From Litorimonas cladophorae (GTDB taxonomy: Bacteria; Pseudomonadota; Alphaproteobacteria; Caulobacterales; Maricaulaceae), in contig NZ_BMYV01000001.1 of the NCBI RefSeq assembly GCF_014652455.1, positions 806,001 to 870,000 of the forward strand: a DNA stretch of 64,000 nt, read 5' to 3'. Below, one piece after another: positions 7,129 to 48,850 of the stretch (positions are counted from its first letter, which is position 1; every line of letters starts with the position of its first letter). The position numbers and the translations under genes were made by a program. Under the pieces are notes generated by a model. It did no database searches and was not told where the DNA came from. It worked only from the letters and a program-made list of their open reading frames with translations.

Positions 7129-7312
7129 ATGCTATTTTTCGTCAGGCCAGAAATCACGCGACATACCGCCCCCCCTTAGCTCCGATCTTGCAGAGGAAAA
7201 CCACTAAAATCTCCCATTTCAAAAACCTTTCCCGCCTTAAGCAAAAACGAAAATCCGTGTTTTCAACAGCTTAAGCCTAGATTCGACAATCGTCTCCCCG
7301 CTTCCGATTTCT

Positions 7313-7571
7313 GTGTCATTTTAAAGTTGTCTTCTTTCAACGGGCAGTCAGGTGCACATTGACTTAACTGGAAAGAAGCGACGCTTGTCATTGGAGGACG
7401 CTGGGTAATGTCAGCAGAATTGGGTGGCCTGCCGCGAGCTGATTCAGACGAGACTTCTGTGTTCGGCCGGCAGTGGAAAAAGGCGTCGTCGCGAGTGTCC
7501 CTCATGGGTCGAAAACCAACCTAGCTTATTCCAGTTCCACTGGACCCATTGATACACTCGCTAACATCCCG
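7313..7571. repeat. Dispersed structured repeat, copy A (uninterrupted)
   Basis: These 259 bp match 48261-48699 once two insertions there are removed, with long identical blocks such as CTTCTTTCAACGGGC, GGAAAGAAGCGACGCTTGTC and GGCGTCGTCGCGAGTGTCC. The right part can fold: GCGAGTGT (7491-7498) pairs with ACACTCGC (7554-7561) and encloses CCC-TCAT-GGG and CCAG-TTCCA-CTGG hairpins. Open frames inside it are not conserved as proteins. It may be a cryptic intergenic repeat of the genome, a non-coding RNA, or a mobile-element remnant. The AT-rich stretch before it (7131-7312) holds a CTTAAGC/GCTTAAG inverted repeat (7236-7275) and no gene. Confidence 0.8.
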
Positions 7572-7617
7572 ATTTTTCCGCCTGAAACGCAATACAAGAC
7601 AACATACAGGAGGCGAC

Positions 7618-7947
7618 ATGCCCCGAGGACGTTTAGGGGCTCGCCCCCGCCGCACAGCCGTTTCGGCGCTGCGGTTCGAACAAATGTGCCATGACATTCG
7701 CGCGACTCGACGCGCCGAACACGCACGACAGCAAGATTTGAAGCTGAAACAGCAGGTTTCAGGCTATGCCGAACTGCGTGAGCAAACCGCCGTGCTGGAC
7801 ATTCAGCTGGAAATGAAAGCTATGGAATTGCGCCTCGTCAACGCCGATCGGCTCATGATCGGCTTGCCAGCTATTGATGTTCTCCCGATGGATGGCGGCA
7901 TCGGCGACACCCGCCGCCCCGAAGATGACTACCGCAATTATCAGTGA
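7618..7947 (+). CDS. Hypothetical protein, basic N-terminus and central coiled coil
   Basis: The 109-residue product begins MPRGRLGARPRRTAVS at an ATG placed 5 nt after AGGAGG, a very strong ribosome binding site. An in-frame upstream ATG at 7549 lies in repeat copy A and lacks such a site. The N-terminus is arginine-rich, the middle (about 25-75) is helical with heptad-like leucines, and the tail is acidic (RRPEDDYRNYQ). I do not recognise the family. It starts 46 nt after the repeat ends, so transcription may begin in or near the repeat. Confidence 0.6.
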   Translation: MPRGRLGARPRRTAVSALRFEQMCHDIRATRRAEHARQQDLKLKQQVSGYAELREQTAVLDIQLEMKAMELRLVNADRLMIGLPAIDVLPMDGGIGDTRRPEDDYRNYQ

Positions 7948-40209: not shown

Positions 40210-40595
40210 TCCCCATTGCATATGCTGACTGGACGGCCCATATAGTTTGGGCTGGCTTGCCAGATATGACGATAAACGCGCATGCAATAAGCGGACTGGA
40301 CTCGGGGGCGGTACCCGACGACTCCACCAATAAGTCCTTTCTTTTCTCCACGGATTAGAGAGGGCTTTTCAGTGGGGTCGAAATAGGATCGACAGACGTC
40401 TAAAGATGTTAGCTTTCGTTCGTGTGAGCACCGATAAATGCTCGTATATTATAATTGCAAATGACAATTATTCTGAGGATTTTGCTCTAGCTGCGTAAGC
40501 GGTTCGGGTAATTCCAACTTTAACTCCTAGGGCGTCAGACCCCTAGGCGGGCTCCGGAGAGTAGCTGGCAACAGAAACTCTCCACTTTTCATTTC
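40210..40595 (+). ncRNA. ssrA: Transfer-messenger RNA, circularly permuted two-piece gene
   Basis: Acceptor half: T-arm TCGGG-GGCGGTA-CCCGA (40302-40318), acceptor strand CGACTCC (40319-40325) and encoded ACCA ending at 40329. Intervening segment: about 40330-40373. Coding half: GGGGTCG (40374-40380) pairs perfectly with the acceptor strand, including the G3-U pair used for alanylation. Then follow a D-like arm, the tag frame (40457-40498), hairpin CCTAGGG/CCCTAGG (40526-40547) and a last hairpin GGAGAGT/ACTCTCC (40556-40583). The order acceptor-then-coding is the alphaproteobacterial permutation. The mature pieces act with SmpB to rescue stalled ribosomes. The outer ends are approximate. Confidence 0.95.
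40457..40498 (+). other. tmRNA proteolysis-tag reading frame
   Basis: The resume codon GCA at 40457 opens the frame ANDNYSEDFALAA followed by TAA (40496-40498). The ending ALAA is the degron read by ClpXP, and AND at the start fits alphaproteobacterial tags. Together with the alanine charged on the tmRNA this gives a 14-residue tag. Confidence 0.93.
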
Positions 40596-47923: not shown

Positions 47924-48314
47924 AATTCCTGATCAAAAAAACGCTTCTAAAAGCTAAGAAACGCGCGTCGGTATAGAAATTTTTCGTCAACTCAATAGGT
48001 AAAATGACGCGTTTCGAAAATCCTAATTCCGATTGAAAAAATGAAATATTGGGTTGTCATTTCAGTAACATTAAGGCGCTCCAACACATAGATTCAGTAC
48101 TCTTTATAAAGACAACCTTCGAACAGTTTTTTCTTAAGAGGCGAACATCGAATTTTTAAAAACTGCTCCACAATAAAATAGCTCATTGCATCTAGTTTCT
48201 CGTTTGTTTTCAATGAATTGCATTTTTGTCAGAGAGATGCATCCCCGCCCTCTCATTTGCGTGGCATTTTAAGATGGTCTTCTTTCAACGGGCGGTCATG
48301 TGCACATTGACAAA

Positions 48315-48402
48315 GTGCAGTTCTGTTTATTGGGGATCAAAAATTGGGCGAAGCTAGCCCATTTTTCGATACTCATTTGCTAACAGCAAAACAGAATTGC
48401 AC
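48315..48402 (+). mobile_element. MITE-like palindromic element, copy 1
   Basis: This 88-bp element has 14-bp terminal inverted repeats, GTGCAGTTCTGTTT at the left and AAACAGAATTGCAC at the right, with one mismatch. An internal stem is formed by AATTGGGC and GCCCATTT. It interrupts repeat copy B at the point matching 7360-7370 in copy A. No coding capacity and no obvious target duplication are seen. Confidence 0.8.
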
Positions 48403-48511
48403 GGACCGGAAAGAAGCGACGCTTGTCATTGGGAGAGATCGGGTAATGTCGGTCAATCTGGGTGGCCTAACGCGAGCTGATTACCCCACGACTGGGTTGT
48501 TCGGCCGATTC

Positions 48512-48598
48512 GTGCATTTCTGTTTTCACAAAAAATAGAACCATCGAAAAATGGGCAGCCTTGGCCCAATTTTCGATTCCGAATAAACAGAATTGCAC
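48512..48598 (-). mobile_element. MITE-like palindromic element, copy 2 (opposite orientation)
   Basis: This 87-bp element has the ends GTGCATTTCTGTTT and AAACAGAATTGCAC. Its reverse complement aligns with copy 1 along most of the left half, including the inner AAAATTGGGC...GCCCATTTTTCGAT hairpin, so it is the same family inserted in the other direction. It interrupts repeat copy B at the point matching 7471-7474 in copy A. Confidence 0.8.
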
Positions 48599-48850
48599 CA
48601 GGAAAAAGGCGTCGTCGCGAGTGTCCCTTCGGGGTCGAAAACCAAAACCAAGCTTTTTCCAGTTCCGCTGGACCCTAGAATACACTCGCGAACATCCCGT
48701 CACTCGGGACATTTTTCCAACGAAGACAGCAGAGACTAAGAGATACAAGAGGCCAAACAAACTAGCGGCTTCTGAGGAGATCGGCTCATCCGCCTGAGAA
48801 TTGAGCGTCGCGCATAGGTCGGCCACTGCCGTTCAATTCAACCTTGACTC

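Follow-up and report, generated by a model that had tools for sequence, protein, structure and literature searches.

The repeat to which copy B belongs looks like a family of genes that encode a structured RNA ~260 nt long, as suggested by covariation and terminator-like blocks. The two palindromic inserts of copy B are members of a family of hairpin-forming elements, here called E, that occupy two joints of this RNA in a fixed orientation in this and other species. These two inserts had been reported in an earlier note on the same DNA, and that observation was confirmed, while its interpretation of a MITE-like element inserted twice within copy B was partly supported. The explanation favoured here, with somewhat better than even confidence, is that E entered the joints before the species split, was spread among the copies of the RNA gene by gene conversion and was lost from some of them.

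The window analysed is a stretch of 64,000 nucleotides from Litorimonas cladophorae (contig NZ_BMYV01000001.1, positions 806,001 to 870,000), and its features are listed in Table 1. The two inserts, E1 and E2, had been placed at 48315-48402 and 48512-48598 with a spacing of 109 bp, and these limits were reproduced to within a few bases by the two gaps in an alignment of copy B (48244-48702) with copy A (7296-7574). E1 and E2 are mutually inverted and both are absent from copy A. The reverse complement of E2 had been said to align well with E1, and identity was found in 66 of 88 columns. Both elements have the 14-bp ends (GTGCAgTTCTGTTT / AAACAGAATTGCAC) and the inner GGGC/GCCC hairpin ascribed to them. 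Among the inverted repeats listed for the window, the pair made by E1 and E2 ranks first in both length and complementarity (56 nt, 86 %), the next longest having 35 nt and 74 %. Folds of E1 and E2 compared with those of shuffled sequences gave z-scores of -6.6 and -5.6, and 0 of 200 shuffles were as good.

Table 1. Features of the two repeat copies and the palindromic elements, in positions of the window
Feature	Position	Strand	Remark
E1: 88-bp palindromic element, RNA core site 1 (joint P1a / 3' strand of P1)	48315..48402	+	
E2: 87-bp palindromic element, site 2 (joint P2b / 3' strand of P2)	48512..48598	- (best score)	
Copy B core, 5' part: P1 5' strand, proposed pseudoknot GGG, P1a	48244..48314	+	
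Copy B core, middle: P1 3' strand, P2 5' strand, P2a, P2b; 109 bp between E1 and E2	48403..48511	+	
Copy B core, 3' part: P2 3' strand, P3, P3a, P3b, proposed pseudoknot CCC	48599..48702	+	
Copy B end: terminator-like hairpin and T run, CCCG TCAC TCGGGACATTTTT	48696..48716	+	read from sequence
Block 3' of copy B core: GAGATACA - variable-loop hairpin - TGAGG	48740..48777	+	read from sequence
Copy A: RNA core without E at both sites	7296..7574	+	
Small ORF directly 3' of copy A	7618..7947	+	relatives 3' of core copies in other species

E is a palindrome of ~75-91 bp that forms a single nested hairpin, and its constant part lies in the ends, which consist of GTGCA, a usual mismatch at position 6 and then about seven paired bases. 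In a set of 49 elements that includes near-identical copies, the ends paired at positions 1-5 and 7-13 in 44-49 elements and were mismatched at position 6 in 43, mostly with A opposite A or T opposite T. At this position E1 has G opposite T, as one of four such elements, and E2 has T opposite T, or A opposite A on the other strand. This pattern of the ends is a specific mark and does not resemble an arbitrary hairpin.

The dispersed repeat described previously is real but is not confined to two copies, since a DNA search of the genome itself (3.02 Mb, nine contigs) placed it at 16 positions (L054-L069), two of which are cut by contig ends. It was detected in 10 of the 60 genomes searched; these ten, among them the present one, belong to a single genus. 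A covariance model of the middle and 3' part of the core had matches in 12 of 18 genomes of the genus; at the level of the family, 22 of 137 genomes, from 5 of 19 genera, had a match. When named genomes were scanned with a pattern, 51 stretches were returned, of which 50 belong to uncultured Caulobacterales; the other, from Stenotrophomonas, was taken as a chance match. An origin of the repeat in phages or plasmids was rejected, as copy A had no match in either; one exact core pattern matched no viral contig, and the sole match of E1 in plasmids was one 29-base piece. A divergent subfamily of the RNA was also read at five loci of this genome (L299-L303; G000:C1:123548, 1126197, 1522414, 584500 and C2:849525), two of which (L299 and L301) have mini-hairpins with GTGCA..TGCAC-like ends, seen by eye.

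Some neighbouring genes recur beside copies of the repeat. The thioesterase gene 3' of copy B has a counterpart in G009 (L169, G009:C20) with a divergent core upstream on the opposite strand, identified by eye, and no piece of a core was found beside this gene in G015 and G003. A relative of the ORF at 7618-7947 lies 3' of a core copy in G008 (L024/L188, 44 % over 108 aa) and another, assigned by eye, is present in G002 (L192) with an early in-frame stop.

Evidence for a structured RNA was obtained from comparisons among copies. A consensus fold from 30 aligned E-free cores had two-sided changes in 22 of 44 pairs. The core model, with 63 pairs in 12 helices, was drawn on one of the 27 full-length cores on which it was tested. 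In these cores 98.4 % of cells were paired, as opposed to 87.1 % in shuffles and 38-51 % when the model was slid. Two-sided changes were present in 27 of 63 pairs (18.2 in shuffles) and 188 cells (53.6 in shuffles), and the covariation score was 0.365 (0.140 in shuffles). The values for pairing, two-sided changes and covariation score were reached in 0 of 500 shuffles, and that for further pair types (69 versus 61.6) in 3 of 500, with the qualification that kinship among core copies inflates these tests. Eleven of the 12 helices contain two-sided changes. The exception is a proposed pseudoknot of three pairs, which is invariant and thus without covariation support; a longer GGGAC/GUCCC counterpart was read by eye in other genera. 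The core is presumably transcribed, although a covariation signal of this RNA-like kind could in principle also come from single-stranded DNA.

Copy A alone folded no better than its shuffles (z -0.79). Copy B as a whole gave a z of -8.7, a value that was set aside because it largely reflects pairing of E1 with E2. By eye, a terminator-like hairpin follows the core in several other copies, and the block of GAGATACA, a hairpin and TGAGG recurs in many copies with compensating stem changes and a variable loop length; this block looks like a second small structured element.

A known RNA family for the core was rejected in the absence of a credible Rfam match. At the gathering cut-off, the scan of the window gave tmRNA only and nothing over the core; up to an E-value of 10, copy A had no match and copy B had one rimP match of 17 bits (gathering 47); and up to an E-value of 1, none of 20 divergent loci had a match over the core. 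The tmRNA match is an alphaproteobacterial (permuted) tmRNA gene at 40212-40586 (RF01849, 247 bits). No recognised report of this RNA or of E was found in open-licence papers.

The placement of E in this RNA is highly regular. All ten convincing E places of this genome, with weaker matches (E-value 0.14 and up) left out, lie inside core copies, at two sites and with one orientation per site. Site 1 joins P1a to the 3' strand of P1 and holds E in the + orientation (as at G000:C1:1577815 in L069); site 2, at which E is inverted, joins P2b to the 3' strand of P2. These elements are carried by nine copies, of which three have E1 only, four have E2 only and copy B has both; the ninth is L067. The same two sites and orientations were found in other species, and in G004 E is located in the apical part of P2b (L193, L199). 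The further copies that the earlier note had proposed looking for exist both in this genome and in its relatives. In L067 (G000:C2:673101-673339) the left flank of site 1 is fused to E2 and the whole middle of the RNA is missing, as if deleted between shared GTGCAxTTCTGTTT ends. Ten distinct mini-elements of 26-32 bp with ends of the E kind were also present in the loci examined. With places assigned by eye, a third joint, in P3, accounts for eight of them, while L097 has one at site 1 and L092 has one within a terminator-like hairpin, in its loop. Cores of other genera (L291, L292, L295) seemingly have additional arms of other kinds, located at site 1 or in P2b, as read by eye, and these joints may accept expansions in general.

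The effect of E on the fold was counted in 70 of 71 cores, L114 being too divergent to include. In the 11 cores with E1 only, P1, P2, P2a, P2b and P3 were paired at 97-100 % and the inner P2a in 40 of 44 cells, and pairing was lower in P3b with 36 of 44 (158 of 176 in E-free cores); E1 looks neutral to the fold. In the nine cores with E2 only, P1, P2, P2a and P3 were paired at 98-100 %, and pairing was reduced in P1a (27 of 32 cells) and P3b (25 of 35). E2 costs the foot of P2b, where 38 of 54 cells were paired with E2 only versus 281 of 282 in the 47 cores without E. Three counted cores hold both elements. Most of the core fold is kept, since each E forms a hairpin by itself within a joint that is not paired, and carriage of E may be nearly neutral.

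E is not restricted to the RNA. In the genus, with an E-value threshold of 0.1 and at most 150 candidates scored per genome, the matches listed comprised 51 distinct E places, 33 in cores and 18 outside, a division made against 34 core places with one E place assigned by hand. A core search over the 18 free elements found none that overlapped a core, a weak match in L181 lying 400 bases off. Among the matches listed, 11 of the 18 free elements begin within 8 nt of an ORF stop codon, a count without a chance control. The adjacent genes are ones that we take to be a nusA-like ORF (L137), trigger factor (tig) in three species (L191, L306 and L312), ybgF in three species, with E lying after it and before a tilS-like ORF (L184, L308 and L309), and ruvB-like (L304) and rpsO-like (L313) genes; the remaining two elements precede ORFs that presumably resemble kdsB (L310) and an alcohol dehydrogenase (L311). 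One free E lies 11 bases before a tRNA-Leu, one precedes what is presumably a 5S-like sequence and one E copy lies within a gene that appears to be Rhs-like (L182). The first G of the free E in L191, L304, L310 and L311 completes a TAG stop codon, and in L304 and L310 an ATG follows within 3 bases 3' of E, as if E were the whole spacer. The long core copy at L137 (G005:C21) was considered as a carrier of a gene and rejected; the core is cut off inside E1 and followed by ordinary ORFs, the free E being the one that ends the nusA-like ORF.

Phylogenetic trees were used to examine the age of the elements. The E tree comprised 38 element rows (of the 51 listed places), 13 from site 1 and 13 from site 2, with mostly low supports and seven long rows. 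Site-1 and site-2 labels changed once among these 26 rows. Site-1 rows from five genomes formed a group that also includes one free element (L137), and the site-2 rows made up the remainder. Against all other rows, site-1 elements need 2 changes and site-2 elements 4, so a single founding is likely for site 1 only. The elements group by site, and copy B is therefore no evidence of two recent jumps; the proposal of two insertions into copy B itself was not upheld, since the grouping by site extends across species and the same sites are filled elsewhere. The founding of site 1, at least, probably predates the divergence of these species, and the insertions in copy B would have been inherited or converted.

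Gene conversion predicts partly homogenised copies at old loci together with a patchy distribution of E. In a tree of 71 cores from which E had been cut out, copies clustered by genome, with 19 changes versus 47.7 in shuffles. This clustering was partial, as no genome other than G010 had its copies in a single clade, and 7 changes are needed for the 14 rows of this genome. Several of the loci are orthologous, as judged from their flanking genes. Among six cross-species locus pairs that share genes on both flanks, five differ in E (L002/L208, L003/L105, L003/L205, L006/L209 and L010/L248) and one is empty on both sides (L105/L205). The five differing pairs represent four loci of this genome, with E here and none there. 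Some pairs with one shared flank, which are outside that count, agree in E (for example L004/L237, both with E1).

The sequence comparisons suggest that E was probably spread or lost among the RNA copies by gene conversion. In the favoured account, joint 1 would have received one E, and joint 2 a single inverted E or a small number of them, before the species split. The inserts would then pass between copies of the RNA gene by gene conversion, a process that would also keep the copies of one genome alike, and be lost from others, leaving copy B with both elements and copy A with neither. Gene conversion is not the sole route of E because elements occur outside the core (18 of 51 among the matches listed).

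Candidates for a mover were also sought. The Y1 transposase (PF01797) was rejected, being absent from 18 of 18 genomes of the genus while a control matched in 5 of 14. An IS with matching ends, the partner that the earlier note had suggested searching for, was not found in this genome, where 24 half-ends with at most one mismatch comprised 20 ends of the ten E elements and four isolated sequences. No direct flank repeat of 2-9 bp touched the element at any of 48 junctions, in agreement with the earlier statement that no target duplication is obvious. Since these searches yielded no mover, conversion was taken as the probable vehicle of E within the RNA family.

The best-surviving alternative, although a doubtful one, is that E is actively mobile, finds the joints and loops of hairpins in single-stranded DNA or RNA, and entered the same core joints repeatedly through target preference. 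E-like ends do occur in structured places, namely sites 1 and 2, the third joint with its mini-elements and the apical P2b of G004, as well as in a terminator-like hairpin loop (by eye) and beside the tRNA-Leu and the 5S-like sequence, so that structured sequence, for which a preference had been suggested, is a frequent location of E. The junctions without flank repeats and the site-2 elements, which do not form one clade, fit this alternative, and on the core tree the two site labels change 12 and 7 times, as repeated insertion would give (L117 was scored there without E1 although E1 is present). However, free repeated insertion would not be expected to yield site-1 elements that group across five species or an orientation fixed for each site, and neither the genus (PF01797) nor the IS of this genome provided a mover. 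A wider proposal, which we regard as tentative, is that E belongs to a class of mobile hairpins that target the joints and loops of RNA genes, either in the folded RNA or in single-stranded DNA, without target duplication. The end mismatch would serve as a recognition mark, and a multi-copy RNA would be a safe harbour in which they spread by conversion, this harbour being a new class of large multi-copy bacterial RNA.

It is unlikely that E is instead a functional processing or stability signal at mRNA 3' ends and RNA joints (for example for double-strand cleavage or protection) that is kept by selection and is not selfish. The proximity of free copies to stop codons, with the reservation given above for that count, would suit such a signal, as would the frequent mismatch at position 6 and the ends of E at tig, which change together (AAACA..TGTTT and GAACA..TGTTC). 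Against this, the trigger factor gene of this genome, which lies in the window, has no full E at its 3' end, and many orthologous core copies are without E.

The choice between insertion and ancestral loss, raised in the earlier note, was informed by outgroups. No E match at an E-value of 0.1 or below was found in 20 divergent core loci, 12 of them from other genera, with an E model built on this genus that may miss very diverged elements. The empty state looks older because the 12 cores of other genera have no E match, which supports insertion. A reading of E1 and E2 as original arms of the RNA that copy A and others like it have lost is therefore highly improbable: L067, whose middle was lost at the shared ends, shows that deletions occur, but these outgroup cores and the presence of E at unrelated places in relatives argue against it.

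The favoured history of early entry and conversion may be set beside known systems of short palindromes. With 88 and 87 bp and terminal inverted repeats, E1 and E2 have the form of a MITE, and the elements are one palindromic, non-coding family, in line with the single small element family proposed in the earlier note. They are not classical MITEs, having no target-site duplication (0 of 48) and no autonomous partner with the same ends in their own genome; dispersal to places outside the core amounts to 0 of 10 elements in this genome and, among the matches listed, 18 of 51 in the genus. REP elements are imperfect palindromes with a mismatch and in this are similar to E. In contrast to the REP/RAYT and IS200-IS605 systems, the genus that carries E has no Y1 transposase (PF01797, 18 of 18 genomes); REP elements are treated in passages of a survey (PMC12306157).

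The closest analogue would appear to be the Rickettsia palindromic elements (RPE) found in RNA genes. Passages of Delihas 2007 (PMC2229807) describe these as palindromic alphaproteobacterial sequences of 105-146 bp, fused into the tmRNA and M1 RNA genes and elsewhere, and as in-frame inserts in protein genes. Compared by description only, E is similar in being a palindrome in unpaired joints of a covarying RNA, and differs in occupying one RNA family at recurrent joints as well as positions next to stop codons. The same source includes passages on NEMIS/Correia, RUP and ERIC, which are short, have inverted ends and form a hairpin when transcribed (PMC2229807). E is likewise short with inverted ends and a hairpin, but differs from such bacterial miniature elements in its lack of a target duplication or a partner in its own genome and in the confinement of all ten own-genome elements to one RNA family. 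CIR of Caulobacter is outlined there as ~110 bp with inverted repeats, two arms joined by a linker and a conserved GANTC (PMC2229807). E shares the bacterial order of the host and the inverted repeats; by description, it differs in forming a single nested hairpin and in having GANTC in only 19 of 49 elements. Hairpin elements held to be mobile are further known from fungal mitochondria, namely double-hairpin elements (PMC5910586) and GC clusters, with a GC-cluster-like mobile family (PMC4478555). These are hairpin elements like E, but organellar, and some may likewise lie in structured RNA.

These findings link two open questions, namely how bacterial palindromes without a transposase move and how large RNAs gain peripheral helices. 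Orthologous loci offer each joint both with and without its insert, which makes it possible to test how well an RNA tolerates additional helices. The family itself, found at 16 places here and unmatched in Rfam over its core, would be a conserved RNA in a largely uncultured group of Caulobacterales.
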